Of a stretch of DNA of 23,764 nucleotides, positions 1,832-23,753 are shown piece after piece. The DNA is taken from positions 1 through 23,764 of IMG/VR virus record IMGVR_UViG_3300010371_000115. One strand, 5' to 3'. Under the pieces are notes generated by a model. The model made no database searches. It saw only the letters and a program-made list of their open reading frames with translations, and was not told the origin of the DNA. Source of the stretch: a virus. Each line of letters starts with the position of its first letter. The stretch's first letter is position 1. Both the position numbers and the translations under genes were made by a program.

Positions 1832-4800
1832 GCGCCAAGAGGGCGAGCCTCAAGCATAAAGCGCGCGCCTTTCTCAATCGGCTGGCGAGAGAGAAGGTTC
1901 GCGCCGAATGAACCAAGGTTGGTCGCGCCCTGAGTGACGGGCTGAGCATTGTAGGCGCGAGAGACTTGGCCCAAGACGCGCTGTTGCTCCGGTCCAGTGG
2001 CGACTAGGCCGCGCGCTGTTCCCTCGATAAGACGCTTGCGAGCCGCCGACGTAAAAGCGTTGTGCAGGCTCCCGTAGACCGCCTTCGCGCCGGTAAGTGC
2101 CGCAGCGCCCGCGCCTCCTCCTACAGCCTCGCCGAGGATGGCAGCCGTCGGATCAAAGGGCGCCCCCGAGGCAGCCGTATATTTCTGACGCACAGACTGT
2201 TTTTCAGCGGTCTGAGAGCCGGCTTGGATTGCGCTTTCTGTCGCCCTCTTTTTCAGTTCACTATCAAGAGCATCCAGCATATCGGATGCTTTTGGGAAAA
2301 CAGTTTCAAGCTTATGCCGGTTTGCCGATGATTTTGCGAAGAGGCTCCGAGCTTGAGAGAAATCTCCCTGTCGAGCAGACGAAAGAGCCTGTTCAATAGC
2401 TTGACGCGCGCCCTGTTGATGCGCTTCAATTTCTGCCGGAGATGCGGTCTTCATCCATGATTTCAGCGCGTCAGGCGTATCCTGAACGCCTTCAACCCCT
2501 TGTCTCTGTTGGAATATATCCATCCCTTTACTAAAAGCGCTACCAACAAGGTCTTCATATTTGGACGTAAGCTGCTTGATGAGGGAGTTAGCTTCATCCG
2601 GCCCTAGAACGGCTGCGAGCTTTTGCTGAGTGACGCCCTTGTTTGCCAACATCGCAGCCTTTGCCGCCGGGTTGGCCGCACTTTGCATCTGCGCGTTAAA
2701 TGCCGCCCTAGTTCCAAGCTTCGCGGCCTCCTGTTCGCCGTCTGACGCTTTAGCCATAAAAGCCGCCAAAGCTCCTGGCGTCGAGTTGACGCCATTATTT
2801 CGGAAGATACTCTGCCCTTGGTTGAATGCGTCTTGAGCGGCCGAAAGTCCGGCCCAAGATTGACGAGCCACCGCGTAATCCGGATTTACCTTATCTAACT
2901 CTCCGAGATACGCGCGCCGCACCATATCAAAAGCGCGTCCTTCCTCACTAAGACGACCCGTGACGGAGTCTTTCGCGTTCTCTACCATCGCGTCAAGACC
3001 CTTCTTGACGATGTTTAATGTCCTCATATTAGGAACACTTCCGACGATAGGATCGCCATTCGCATCCGTCCCGATAATCGCATATTCTGTCGGGTTGAAC
3101 GGCTTCCCTTCGGCCAAAGATTCAAGGCGTTGTATCTTCACGCCCTGCGCGATGGCCGGCTTCACGATCGGATCATCAAGAAATTGTTGAATACGTGGAT
3201 TCCATATTGCTCCTGGGGCGCTCGCGGTGCCATCAGCTTGTGCCGCTCGGAGGCGCGTTCGAATTGCTTGCTGGATTTGTTGCGCGCCAGTCAAGGCTTC
3301 CTGAGCCTGCGAGACGGCGGAATTAGCTTCTTGGGTTGCGCGAGAAGCAGCGCTATTGGCATATACGTTATTGCCAGCCTGAGACGCCTTGGCGGCCGCA
3401 AGTGTCTGCTGCTGTTGAGCTGAAATAAGGGCCTTTTGCGTTTGCGAAACCTGATCTGTAGCGTCCGAAAACGCATTGGAAAATTGCGTCTCAAGAGGAG
3501 CGACACTTCCGCCTTGCATCGCTTTTGCGTAGAGAGGGGCCGCTGCCGCCGATCGACTCTGAATCATTTTTTGCAACTGCTCGTAAGGATCGACGGACAT
3601 TCCTAGGCTCGCATCCAGGGCTGCCTTCGCTGTGGCGTTGTCTACAGTATTTGCTGCCGTGCGAGTCTTAATGTCATTCACAATAGCCTGTGCATCAGGC
3701 TTAGGTCCAAGCGTCTTATTGACGATAGCCGCCATATTGTCGTTTGCATTCGTCCCGCGTACAGCCGCCGCATTTTTCAATACAGCCGTAGGCGTACCGC
3801 CGAGGGACGCTATTCCTTGGGCCTCATTCGCCATGAGAGGATGCACATCGGCGAAGGTCGCGTTTGAACCCATGCTCGCGATCTTGGCCCGCGCTTCATT
3901 TGGCGTCATCCCCGCATCACGAAGCATATTCGCCATGTTCACGGCTTCGGGCGACGTGCGGTTGAGCATGTTGGAAACCGTCCCAACAGCTTTTCCGACG
4001 CCAGCGCCGACGACGGGGCCTAGAGCGCCCCCTAAGCCGCCATAGAAAGCGCCGCTCTTGGCATTCTGCACGGTCAGGCCATTGCGCACCACGTTATCAG
4101 TCGCTCCGATCCCCGCTCCTGTAGTCGCGCCCACTAGGGCGTTTACGACAAGGGGAGCGCCTTCAGCAGCGCCAAAGGCAGCCGGGGCGGCGAGCATCGC
4201 GGGAAGCGTGCCCGCAATTCCGCCGCTCACATTAAGCGCCGTATTTGCGACGGGATGCTGAGCGGCGAAGATCTTGTCCATGCCCTCTTGAGTAGCGAGG
4301 GAACTGTTATAGCGATCAGACCATGAGGTCCCTTGCAACTGGTCTGCCGGGGAGTAAAATCGATTGAGAACCGGGGCCAGCGTGGCGTTGGTCGCCGCGT
4401 CCATACGATTTAGGAGGCCGCCTGCAATCGGGACGCCCGTGGCTGCGGCGCGAACGGCATCGTTCACCCCGATAGGCGTTGCAGGGGCCGGAGGGAAGGC
4501 TGGGGACGCAGCCGGGCTTGTCGAGGTAGGATAGTCCGAAAACGGATCGCTAGCCCCCGCCTTGGTCGCGACAGGAGCGGAAAGGGCGCTCTCGGAAACC
4601 GAGAACGAATCCCCCGAGGAAGGAGCAACGGTTGTCGGATAGTCCGCGAACGGGTCAGACGCAGCCGGCGCGGCCTTTGCGGACGCGGTAGGATAATCCG
4701 AAAATGGATCGGCCCCTTGTGTGGCTTTTGCTATGGCTGCGCTCGCGGGCGCGGGCGAAACCTTCCCGCGATAAAACATCGTGCTCCCGAGGCTGACGCC

Positions 4801-18963: not shown

Positions 18964-19185
18964 TTACGGCGTCTCATCGCTGAATAGACGTGGCTTGCGA
19001 ACTCGGCCGGGAACCAACTCATCGTCAACCGCGACATCGACGTTATGAGCGTCGCAGAACGCCACCACATGCGGGGGCGCATCCTTGGCGAAGCGCTCGG
19101 CGTATTCCGGGAGCTTGCCACGATAGCGCCGGTAGACCATGCAATCGGAACCAGCGCTGTAGGATGCAGCCCAGGTGTAGGTCAT
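18964..19185 (-). CDS. Small protein between terminase and portal
   Basis: The 73-residue product overlaps the terminase stop by four bases (ATGA) if the ATG at 19185 is used. ATG 19197 is also possible and would add four residues. Longer extensions lie wholly in the terminase frame and are unlikely. It contains YTWAASYSAGSDCMVYRRYR and HVVAFCDAHNVDVAVDDELV. No family is recognised. Two Cys and two His do not form an obvious zinc motif. Position alone suggests a DNA-packaging or head-assembly accessory. Confidence 0.65.
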   Translation of the reverse strand: MTYTWAASYSAGSDCMVYRRYRGKLPEYAERFAKDAPPHVVAFCDAHNVDVAVDDELVPGRVRKPRLFSDETP

Positions 19186-20789
19186 CGTCCTAGCCATCCC
19201 ACTCTGCTCGGGAACACTTCGTTCGGCGCGGTCTGCGGTTTCGGTTTTTTGTATGCCTGATTCCGCACGTGCCACGCCATGACCATTGCGTCCGCCTCAT
19301 CAGGCGAAGAACCCAACCTCTCGCGAATATCCTCTTTGCTCTCGATCAGTATTCGCCCAGTGCGAGGTCGCCACCGCGCCGCCGTAAGCTGCGCCAGGAT
19401 GCGATCCCCAACCGGGAGAGCAATAGGCTCTTGCGTCTTGGCCGGATCGAGTGCCTTACGGAAATTCCAATACATTTTGGCGCGAAGATTGGCGAAGCCT
19501 AACTGCGTCTCGCTGTCTCCGCCCTCTGCCCCCGCAGAGAACACAATCGCCGCGACGGTTATCTGGTGATGCGTCTTGAGATGATCCCGGGCCGAGCCAC
19601 CCCAACCTCCCGTCGTATCGACCGCAACCGCCGCGCCGTCTCTCCGTTCCATCAGGATCAGGTCCGCGACCGAAGGACCATCCGGCGTTAGCGCACCGGG
19701 GCGCGACTTGATGCGCCCAAATACGTTGCCCTCATACAACGGAGCAAGAACCGTGTTGTCCAATCCCCCTTGCGCGACATCAACCCCGAGCGCCAGCATA
19801 CGCTTTGCGCCAGGATCAGACCAGCGCGCTTGCGCTTGCCTCACCCATTCCGAGGGGATAACTTGCCACTCATCATCCTCGCGCCCACTTAGGAAATCGC
19901 CCTTGAGCAACTGCGAGCGCAACGGCTCAGGCATCGAATTAAGCTGCGCCCGGTAGTTCGTATTCCTCAGATACGGGTTATCGTCCAGCCTCGCCGGGAT
20001 GAATGTCCGGGAAAGTGGCTTGGAAACCTCATCAAGCGGCGGGTTACACGCGATCTCCTCTGGCGTGGCCAAGCGCCATGTCTTATCAGGGTTGACGAAA
20101 ATATGCTCCGGTCCATTAGTCCATATCGTGCGAAGCTCTTTCGCATCACCGACCGTCAAGCCGTAGCGTAGCTCCCCGTTCTTAGCTGGCTTCGGGAACA
20201 GCGGGTCAAGCCACGGCGCGAACCATTCGAGAAGATATGAGCCCTCGCCCCCGATTGGCGGGTTAGACGCGATGATCGCCCGGCAACGATGGCCCTCAGC
20301 CGAGCGGAGCCAGCCGAGTACAAAGTTGACCTTGTACGGGCTTAGCTGTGCACCTTCGTCGATAGCAATCAAATCGTGGGGTCTGCCCTGCCATCCCTTT
20401 TCCGAATCGGGGGCATCCAAGTGACCACACTCCACAAGTCGGCTGTCTTTCGTGGTCAGCCGCTTCAGAACGCTGTTCTTGCTGTCCGCGTTCTTGCAGA
20501 TTTCCGTCAGGCGTTCCCAGAACCCATTAAGATCATTGGACTGGCGACGGAACACAACTGACCGGTAATGCTCCGTAAGGCACAGCCCGCAAATCAGATC
20601 GGTCTTGCCCCCGCCAGCAGCGCCACCGTACAGCAGCAAATCCGCCTGCGAAAGATACGCGTCTAGCTGCGGACCCAGCGTGGGCAGCCACGGCTTCGAC
20701 AGTTCAACCTCCAGAAGCTTGTCGAGTTCGGCTTTCTGTGGCTCGGTGAGCCCCGCAAGAAGCGCGTCGAGCCGCTCACTTGCTGTCAT
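19182..20789 (-). CDS. terL: Terminase large subunit (packaging ATPase/nuclease)
   Basis: The 535-residue motor protein carries a Walker A loop GGAAGGGKT (residues 55-63), a Walker B LIAIDEG (140-146, with D144 and E145), and a coupling motif ASNPP (174-178). The C-terminal RNase H-like nuclease has acidic residues in LALGVDVAQG (D337), VAVDTTGG (D391) and SSPDEADAM (about 494-502). It drives DNA into the procapsid and cuts the concatemer. The start overlaps the small-subunit stop by four bases (ATGA). All expected motifs are intact, so the enzyme should be active. Confidence 0.95.
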   Translation of the reverse strand: MTASERLDALLAGLTEPQKAELDKLLEVELSKPWLPTLGPQLDAYLSQADLLLYGGAAGGGKTDLICGLCLTEHYRSVVFRRQSNDLNGFWERLTEICKNADSKNSVLKRLTTKDSRLVECGHLDAPDSEKGWQGRPHDLIAIDEGAQLSPYKVNFVLGWLRSAEGHRCRAIIASNPPIGGEGSYLLEWFAPWLDPLFPKPAKNGELRYGLTVGDAKELRTIWTNGPEHIFVNPDKTWRLATPEEIACNPPLDEVSKPLSRTFIPARLDDNPYLRNTNYRAQLNSMPEPLRSQLLKGDFLSGREDDEWQVIPSEWVRQAQARWSDPGAKRMLALGVDVAQGGLDNTVLAPLYEGNVFGRIKSRPGALTPDGPSVADLILMERRDGAAVAVDTTGGWGGSARDHLKTHHQITVAAIVFSAGAEGGDSETQLGFANLRAKMYWNFRKALDPAKTQEPIALPVGDRILAQLTAARWRPRTGRILIESKEDIRERLGSSPDEADAMVMAWHVRNQAYKKPKPQTAPNEVFPSRVGWLGR

Positions 20790-21085
20790 TCCGCCGACTT
20801 CGCGAGCAAGAGCGCAACCGCAGCCTTGCGCTTGGCGTCAGACACATTCTCGAACTTGAGCGGGTTCTCGCGGTCGCCCGCTATCGTATGTGGGAGCACC
20901 TTGCCGAGCAGCGCGGCGAATGCGCTGGTGTTGGCCGTGGCAAGCGTGGTGAGGTAGCCGACCATCCCGCCATCGCCACCAGCCGCGTCCGCAGCGGCCA
21001 GGATCGCCTCTTTAAGCTGCGTCGTCATCTTGTTCGGGACGCCAGCTTTTCGTCCGGCTCCCTCGCGGCGTCCACCATTTCCCAT
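20786..21085 (-). CDS. terS: Terminase small subunit
   Basis: The 99-residue protein opens with GGRREGAGRKAGVPNK, a basic segment typical of small terminases of this kind, followed by helices (TTQLKEAILAAADAA, GYLTTLATANTSAFAALLGK, VLPHTIAGD). Small subunits bind the packaging site and load the large subunit. It is the first gene of the long leftward run, directly upstream of and overlapping terL. Three tandem 11-bp repeats lie 32-64 bases before its ATG and could be its recognition site or its promoter's operator. Confidence 0.85.
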   Translation of the reverse strand: MGNGGRREGAGRKAGVPNKMTTQLKEAILAAADAAGGDGGMVGYLTTLATANTSAFAALLGKVLPHTIAGDRENPLKFENVSDAKRKAAVALLLAKSAE

Positions 21086-21116
21086 TTGAAATTTGTGCCT
21101 ACTTTTTCAGTCTTGT

Positions 21117-21149
21117 AATTGTCTCATAATTGTCCCATATTTGTCGCAT
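21117..21149. repeat. Three tandem 11-bp repeats upstream of terS
   Basis: AATTGTCTCAT (21117-21127), AATTGTCCCAT (21128-21138) and ATTTGTCGCAT (21139-21149) abut without gaps, consensus AWTTGTCNCAT. A weak fourth copy keeping only GTC in phase lies at 21106-21116. The 11-base period is about one helical turn, so protein would bind along one DNA face. The array sits in the short gap between leftward terS and rightward frames, suitable for an operator or a packaging-recognition site. Confidence 0.7.
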
Positions 21150-21426
21150 GGGGAAACTGAGGTACGTGGATGCGAGCGACGACCACCGCTGTGGGCAACA
21201 TAGCGATGCCGGGAGACATAATTCAATTGCAGGCGGGATCGCGCAAACCTGGCCTGAAAGTTCGGGTGCTGGATGCCAGCCGCACGGAGATCGAATTCGA
21301 CGCGGAAGACCTCGCCTTGAACAGAAAGGCCAGACGTGCGAAGCGCTCAAACCGTGGCTAGCCGAAGGTATGAGCCGATCCACATGGTACAGGCGGCGCA
21401 AGGAACCCCAAACGCCGCCCACTTAG
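21148..21426 (+). CDS. HTH-like small protein (start uncertain), overlapping a second frame
   Basis: The convincing part is residues about 50-92: RRGRPRLEQ, with an AT-hook-like RGRP core, then EALKPWLAEGMSRSTWYRRR, which reads like a small helix-turn-helix used by phage and plasmid proteins. The first 50 residues look out of character (Gly/His/Ser/Asp mix) and the ATG at 21148 has no ribosome site. A real product may therefore start elsewhere, or arise by a -1 shift from the overlapping frame beginning at 21170. The gene converges on the 174-residue gene, with two bases between stops. The function would be DNA binding, by inference. Confidence 0.4.
   Translation: MGKLRYVDASDDHRCGQHSDAGRHNSIAGGIAQTWPESSGAGCQPHGDRIRRGRPRLEQKGQTCEALKPWLAEGMSRSTWYRRRKEPQTPPT
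21170..21361 (+). CDS. Small rightward protein nested in another frame
   Basis: The 63-residue frame starts at an ATG seven bases after GAGG, a better start than that of the overlapping frame. It contains a beta-like segment (PGDIIQLQAGSRKPGLKVRV, then TEIEFDAEDLAL) and a basic end (NRKARRAKRSNRG). Codons look natural. It overlaps the HTH-like frame over its whole length, so either both are used or one is spurious, or the two are parts of one frameshifted gene. No family is recognised. Confidence 0.42.
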   Translation: MRATTTAVGNIAMPGDIIQLQAGSRKPGLKVRVLDASRTEIEFDAEDLALNRKARRAKRSNRG

Positions 21427-23373: not shown

Positions 23374-23410
23374 CCCGTCTCAGCGTGTGCCGATTCATTC
23401 AACGACGACA

Positions 23411-23512
23411 GTTTCGATCCACAGCGGGACGTTGCCCCGCGACAACTCTTACAGCCTGCGCCGATTATCTATGGCAGAGAGTTTCGATCCACGGCGGGAG
23501 CCGTCCCGCGAC
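23411..23512 (-). CRISPR. Two-repeat CRISPR-like element, type I-C-like (candidate repeat mimic)
   Basis: Two related units, 23411-23443 (33 bp) and 23481-23512 (32 bp), flank a 37-bp spacer-length segment. Read leftward, both begin GTCGCGGG and end GTGGATCGAAAC. Type I-C CRISPR repeats are 32 bp, begin GTCGC and end GTGGATTGAAAC. Each unit has a GC hairpin in the right place: GCGGGA/TCCCGC in one, GCGGG/CCCGC in the other. The loops differ, so the two copies are not identical as in an active array, while hairpin and ends are kept. No cas gene is present. It could be a mini-array, a repeat mimic that binds host Cas proteins, or a pair of regulatory hairpins upstream of the HTH gene. Confidence 0.5.
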
Positions 23513-23513
23513 C

Positions 23514-23534
23514 GCGCGAGCGATGCTCTCGCGC
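23514..23534. other. 7-bp inverted repeat between repeat pair and HTH gene
   Basis: GCGCGAG (23514-23520) and CTCGCGC (23528-23534) pair around CGATGCT. It begins one base after the second CRISPR-like unit and lies 33 bases before the HTH start codon. It may be an operator for that HTH protein, or the 5' hairpin of a leftward RNA. Confidence 0.4.
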
Positions 23535-23540
23535 AAAGAC

Positions 23541-23568
23541 AGCCTATCATCACACAGGGATATGTCAA
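23541..23568 (-). promoter_or_regulatory. Possible leftward promoter reading into the CRISPR-like repeats
   Basis: On the minus strand a perfect TTGACA (23563-23568) is followed, 16 bases on, by TAGGCT (23541-23546), a poor -10. Transcription would start near 23533 and run through both repeat units in the orientation expected of a CRISPR RNA. The -10 is weak, so this is tentative. Confidence 0.3.
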
Positions 23569-23753
23569 TGACCGCCGCCGAATTCGCCGCCCTTCGCAAG
23601 CGCCTCGGCCTCACTCAGGCCGAGATCGGCGAGCTGATCGGCAAATCAGCCCGGACAGTGAGAGCTTTCGAGGCCGGGTTTCGCAAAATCCCCCGATCCG
23701 CCGAGATCATCCTCACCGGGACGGCCATCGCCTTAGCCTTGCGCGCCCACTGA
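23568..23753 (+). CDS. XRE-type HTH regulator, Aca-sized
   Basis: The 61-residue product is essentially one Cro/CI-type helix-turn-helix: FAALRKRLGLTQAEIGELIG (helices 1-2), then KSARTVRAFEAGFRKIPRSA (recognition helix and helix 4) and a hydrophobic end. The ATG at 23568 is seven bases after AGGGA. The ATG at 23562 is too close. The longer open frame upstream runs through the repeats and is not protein-like. It would act as a dimeric DNA-binding repressor, probably on its own promoter region, where two hairpin repeats and a 7-bp inverted repeat lie. Its size and place beside small unknown genes resemble anti-CRISPR-associated (Aca) regulators, though a plain Cro-like role is equally possible. 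Confidence 0.8.
   Translation: MTAAEFAALRKRLGLTQAEIGELIGKSARTVRAFEAGFRKIPRSAEIILTGTAIALALRAH

Follow-up and report, generated by a model that had tools for sequence, protein, structure and literature searches.

The window analyzed here covers all 23,764 bases of its IMG/VR record and contains an array of three abutting 11-bp direct repeats at positions 21117-21149 that probably serves as the operator of P0001, a 92-aa protein encoded by a divergent gene that starts inside the array. The regulator acting at the repeats is most likely the product of this gene, whose start codon lies in the third repeat, and the arrangement of the sites points to autoregulation, probably together with co-regulation of the divergent putative terS gene.

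The repeat array and the gene that starts within it

A first-pass annotation had reported three abutting 11-bp copies at 21117-21149, and these positions proved to be exact. All three are on the plus strand: copy 1 (21117-21127, AATTGTCTCAT) has the core GTCTCA at 21121-21126, copy 2 (21128-21138, AATTGTCCCAT) has GTCCCA at 21132-21137, and copy 3 (21139-21149, ATTTGTCGCAT) has GTCGCA at 21143-21148. The copies are identical in 9 of 11 columns, and the unit can be described as a GT[G/C]NCA core and then an AT-rich stretch of about five bases. A possible fourth, degenerate copy had also been proposed, and a weak candidate can be read from the sequence at 21106-21116 (plus strand); it is plausible in that its GTC (21110-21112, CAGTCTTG) lies in phase, exactly 11 bp to the left of the GTC of copy 1, but it has TTG instead of N-C-A. 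Tandem Repeats Finder ranked the array first in the window, with a score of 47 for 3.1 copies of period 11. When the window was dinucleotide-shuffled 200 times, the best triple at period 11 reached 4-7 identical columns and never the observed 9 of 11; 20,000 shuffles restricted to the local 84 nt gave at most seven, and a chance origin of the array was therefore rejected. No further exact copies of the motif and no opposite-facing copy of the array were found in the window.

The array fills a 62-bp gap between two divergent genes. The leftward gene (20786-21085, minus strand) encodes a protein of 99 aa that matches phrog_11043 (function unknown, E=1e-23), had no match in a Pfam search, and is a putative terS by its position overlapping terL (19182-20789, minus strand). 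The latter is BPP-1-like: it matches phrog_979 and phrog_2, and its product is 42% identical to the TerL of Bordetella phage BPP-1. The terS ATG at 21085 lies 31-32 bases from the array, in agreement with the 32 bases given earlier. On the other side, the CAT of copy 3 runs on as CATG and contains the start codon (ATG, 21148-21150) of the rightward gene. A promoter scan found no clear sigma-70 promoter. Near the right end of the record, a rightward gene at 23385-23753 encodes an HTH_3/HTH_31 protein, a possible phage repressor.

The rightward gene beside the array (21148-21426, plus strand) had been overlooked. It is supported by its open reading frame, by its relatives and by a match of P0001 to the family HMM at E=3e-21, although that profile itself includes the P0001 sequence. 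P0001 appears to be a GRP-arm/helix-turn-helix (HTH) protein and a putative array-binding regulator: its C-terminus consists of a GRP arm and an HTH, GRPRLEQ...KPWLAEGMSRSTWYRR, and ends in RRGRPRLEQKGQTCEALKPWLAEGMSRSTWYRRRKE followed by a short tail. The conserved, predicted DNA-binding module is encoded at 21298-21408 (plus strand, RRGRPRLEQKGQTCEALKPWLAEGMSRSTWYRRRKEP), as indicated by alignment, by AlphaFold and by a profile match to the protein structure 3vw4. AlphaFold block means were pLDDT 83-95 over residues 51-90; a fold search with this model, of which the confident part is the short HTH only, returned no PDB match. The N-terminal half is not conserved. We place the start at ATG 21148 by the embedded-ATG architecture of relatives, since a start codon inside the last repeat is also found in L250, L261, L265, L271 and L283. 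Third-position GC is higher in frame 2 (21170-21361), and a frameshift joining a gene in that frame was considered for this reason and rejected, because in frame 1 the N-terminus and the homologous C-terminus are alike in their profile and no frameshift is needed.

The protein family and its upstream repeats

Relatives of P0001, encoded at forty-odd loci of environmental phages, were found at 13 and 47 viral loci in two scans, the 47 coming from one profile scan. Within the C-terminal module the residues P, W, S, T, W, R and R are invariant in 37 sequences; the N-termini of the family are variable, and some carry CxxC motifs. The module occurs either singly or twice in tandem, in proteins of some 50-150 aa that lack primase and PriCT domains. 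L247 (3715-4077) and L255 (2417-2749) each encode a small protein in which GRP...KPW...TWxRR is duplicated in tandem, and in L229 two consecutive family HTH genes (2690-2938 and 2935-3129) lie between terS and terL. Pfam has no model for the family and phrog_7989 (no function) matches only 3 of 37 members, so that its genes are easily missed, as happened in the window. No members were found among named phages or in a scan, run without a positive-control genome, of 289 genomes from the class to which L167 belongs, and literature searches returned no description of this repeat/HTH-protein system.

The repeats in the start region of the HTH gene recur upstream of many of its relatives. Upstream regions were compared for 41 distinct family members, the window included. 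The most enriched upstream 7-mers include GTGTCAA, GTGACAA, GTGCCAA and TGGCACA, and the consensus in register with the window is [AT]GT[G/C]NCA[AT], in direct repeats and with N free. At least two GT[GC]NCA sites at 10-12 bp spacing on the gene strand were present in 19 of the 41 members, against 0.75 expected, and at least three sites in nine, against 0.05 expected, where the expected values are means in control windows of the same loci; on the opposite strand, chains of at least two sites were found in 4/41 and of at least three in 0/41. The looser core GT[GC]NC gave at least three sites in 13/41 (0.25 expected). The GT[G/C]NCA motif was refined on the same upstream regions that were used for its test, but a motif-free score for three like copies at a period of 10-12 also stands out (17/41 against 1.75 expected), as does the comparison with the opposite strand. 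The pairing of gene and repeat is not universal, as roughly half of the family lacks a recognizable array.

An in-frame ATG lies 5-7 bases past the last GT in about 12 of the 19 array-bearing members, as it does in the window. The last repeat usually runs into the start codon, for example as GGTGCCATG in L250, GGTGACATG in L251, AGTGCCATG in L261 and L283, and GGTGTCATG in L271, and the window counterpart is TTGTCGCATG. In L256 (the same as L230-L233), which is divergent from its neighbor and encodes the helix SRSTWYRR, an array close to that of the window, TTGTCTCAGAATTGTCCCGTAATTGTCTTATG, runs into the ATG. The spacers between the cores are 68% AT, compared to 43% in the whole upstream regions, and AT-rich spacers would suit an AT-hook-like GRPR arm.

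The type of repeat also varies with the type of helix. All 19 of the 19 SRR proteins with at least two sites have GTG sites only, and the window protein, which is of the SRS type, has GTC sites only. Among the others, L256 and L274 (SRS) are GTC-rich by eye and fall below the strict count, L275 is mixed, and L278 and L287 (SRS) have single GTG sites. With one to three SRS cases and a Fisher p of 0.05 by the strict count, this correlation suggests a recognition-helix specificity in which SRR would pair with GTG and SRS with GTC.

The array pattern by itself is not diagnostic of the HTH family. Triples of TTGTCNCA turned up in stretches of diverse origin, 36 of them viral and 102 from genomes, and in many unrelated bacteria; a reversed-pattern control gave 7 viral matches versus the 36 for the real pattern. 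The pattern GTGNCA-N5-GTGNCA-N5-GTGNCATG, which ends in ATG, matched 30 viral contigs, and the protein was encoded only in two of these, both already known members, so that a search starting from the array alone misses the family. A helix of the SRxTxYR type was present near TTGTCNCA arrays at 3 of 138 loci, one of which is probably spurious. Arrays of TTGTC[G/A]CAAGT with an 11-bp period lie just past the 3' end of Fic-like genes (L132, L134, L142, L156, L166 and L189) in unrelated phyla, one DNA 11-mer recurring in different genes, and similar arrays lie within or beside AlbA_2/Schlafen-like ORFs (L129, L192 and L217), both gene names having been assigned by eye. The Bacteroidales MAG RGIG9971 contains many TTGTCCCATTG arrays (L138, L145, L147, L152, L157, L161, L183 and L198) whose inverted partners are spread over different contigs, an arrangement that recalls a small mobile element.

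Some TTGTCNCA arrays are multicopy in a Bacteroidales MAG, which would fit mobile-element ends, and the window array could by analogy consist of the terminal repeats of an IS21/Tn7-like transposable element, or it could be a chance tandem duplication. We regard both as highly improbable. No IstA/IstB-like (IS21-type) cluster was seen among the ORFs near the 138 array loci, and the window lacks an inverted array, which largely refutes a transposon end; the shuffles exclude chance duplication, and the recurrence of the array with the HTH family speaks against either origin.

It is also quite unlikely that the array is the operator of some other factor, such as a host regulator, the HTH_3 protein of 23385-23753 or an unseen phage protein, with the HTH gene merely its target. 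An HTH_3/HTH_31 protein is indeed encoded in the window, and similar TTGTCNCA arrays exist in organisms without the P0001 family, for example in low-GC phages beside RinA-like genes. Small HTH genes with an adjacent TTGTCNCA triple are present in L102, L105, L106, L119 and L188, and we take their products to be RinA/ArpU-like regulators of low-GC (Firmicute-like) phages; the triple of L105 and L188 is upstream of terminase genes and may be a late-promoter element. The helix of L188 (MSRATTYRK) resembles that of the P0001 family, but RinA/ArpU-like regulators are larger and belong to another family, and their array follows the regulator gene instead of covering its start codon. XRE-type repressors usually bind palindromes, whereas the sites in the window are direct repeats. 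Moreover, in diverse phages this repeat type goes together with this protein family, which, like the SRR/GTG pattern, points to the encoded protein itself.

Terminase genes and the packaging reading

The first-pass annotation had offered two readings of the array, a packaging site bound by TerS or a site for a regulator of the divergent genes. The second has gained support, since the array marks the start of a regulator-like HTH gene and the repeats recur upstream of the relatives of that gene; the first is not supported by conservation. Looking for the same array upstream of terS in related phages had been suggested as a check, and none was found in about 80 viral loci with TerL relatives. 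The closest of these, L004 (75% identity), differs in its upstream region, and only L025 among the TerL relatives has the HTH gene. The array is thus absent at the terS of TerL relatives and enriched at the HTH gene, and the conserved partner is the small HTH gene and not terS. A TerL gene with an apparent intein interruption was noticed by eye in L006 (2890-4000).

The position of the family HTH genes relative to the terminase genes leads to the same partner. Pfam placed the HTH gene near terL in L229, L256, L260 (weak), L272, L274, L275, L281 and L284, and terL (phrog_2) was found within about 3 kb of it in L249, L251, L261, L269, L277 and L278; the two are close in the window as well. In L248, L255 and L290 the detected terL is far from the HTH gene, the nearest one detected being over 10 kb away in L248 and L290. 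Order and direction also differ between loci: in L237 the repeats follow terL, in L229 they have terS on one side and the HTH gene on the other, and in L232 terS-terL is downstream and points the other way. Given this variation in order, direction and distance, it is the HTH gene that stays with the repeats.

A pac site recognized by TerS, as in SPP1, is therefore an unlikely explanation for the array, even though it has precedent. The portal and coat of the window phage are P22-like, a lineage known for headful packaging, and the array is close to the putative terS ATG. As in the pac regions of SPP1 and SF6 with their small terminase genes, direct repeats lie by the start of a small packaging gene and overlap promoter DNA. 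In SPP1, pac extends over direct repeats, promoters and the beginning of the small terminase gene (PMC4737164), a precedent that lends the packaging reading some plausibility. Unlike in SPP1 and SF6, the conserved neighbor here is a separate HTH gene, and the array is not conserved with terS; in the relatives the repeats mark the HTH gene (L237, L229 and L232), even where the nearest detected terL is distant.

Relation to ColE2-type Rep proteins and a model for the proposed operator

The family module gave a profile match to the DNA-binding domain of the ColE2-P9 Rep (PDB 3vw4) at E=3.3e-5 and 1.8e-5, and this was the only PDB match up to E=10. ColE2-P9 Rep and the C-termini of ColE2-type Reps have the short module KPWEALGISRATYYRK, compared to KPWLAEGMSRSTWYRR in P0001. 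Matches in plasmid searches were likewise ColE2-type Rep C-termini; these share the layout GRP...KPW...SRSTWYRR, and in some plasmid Reps the module is likewise preceded by a GRP arm (GRPLGVKNKKSISNEKPWISLGVSRSTWYRR). ColE2-type plasmid Reps are known for binding origin DNA, and the DNA that directly follows a ColE2-type rep includes ATGAGACC, with GTCTCAT on the opposite strand (GGTCTCAT). These likenesses would agree with the array being replication-origin iterons or an origin-control site, and P0001 a stand-alone derivative of the ColE2-type Rep DNA-binding module.

We doubt that this is the case. P0001 has only 92 aa and no primase domain, Pfam found no replication domains in it, and no helicase or primase gene was noticed beside the array. 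In contrast to ColE2 Rep, the phage module has short, variable N-termini in place of the N-terminal primase and PriCT domains. The single GTCTCAT of the ColE2-type origin region may be a chance match, and it follows the rep stop, whereas in the phages the repeats are found at the start codon of the HTH gene itself, a position that in many members suits gene control better. The iteron plasmids pSC101, F and RK2 resemble the window in having tandem direct repeats near the gene of a DNA-binding protein, but those repeats are bound by winged-helix Reps, in contrast to the 10-12 bp repeats and minimal HTH seen here. Plasmid iterons are also longer, 17 bp in RK2 and 19 bp in F and P1 (PMC4980987).

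We therefore favor the array as the operator of P0001, and from the sequence features above we infer how such an operator could work. The C-terminal HTH (GMSRSTWYRR) would read GTCNCA in the major groove, with the GRPR arm placed in the AT-rich minor groove, and three, perhaps four, copies of P0001 would line up head-to-tail along the same face of the DNA. The bound monomers would cover the start region for both transcription and translation of the HTH gene. Binding should repress the P0001 gene, since the sites extend across its core promoter region and start codon, and it should also affect the leftward terS-terL transcription, since the 62-bp gap is shared by the two divergent genes.

More tentatively, the relatives of P0001 may make up a widespread and so far unnamed family of minimal DNA-binding proteins of phages, each a stand-alone ColE2-Rep-like GRP arm plus HTH of about 45 residues with a triple 10-12 bp direct-repeat operator embedded in its own start codon. 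Within such a family SRR would read GTGNCA and SRS would read GTCNCA, and the member described here would control terminase from a shared divergent promoter. The window cautions that direct repeats near terS should not be taken as packaging sites by default. If the pairing of protein and repeats holds, these would be among the smallest regulator/operator systems known, found in phages and apparently built on the module with which ColE2-type plasmids read DNA at their origins, and a recognition code could be read from the many natural protein/site pairs of the family.
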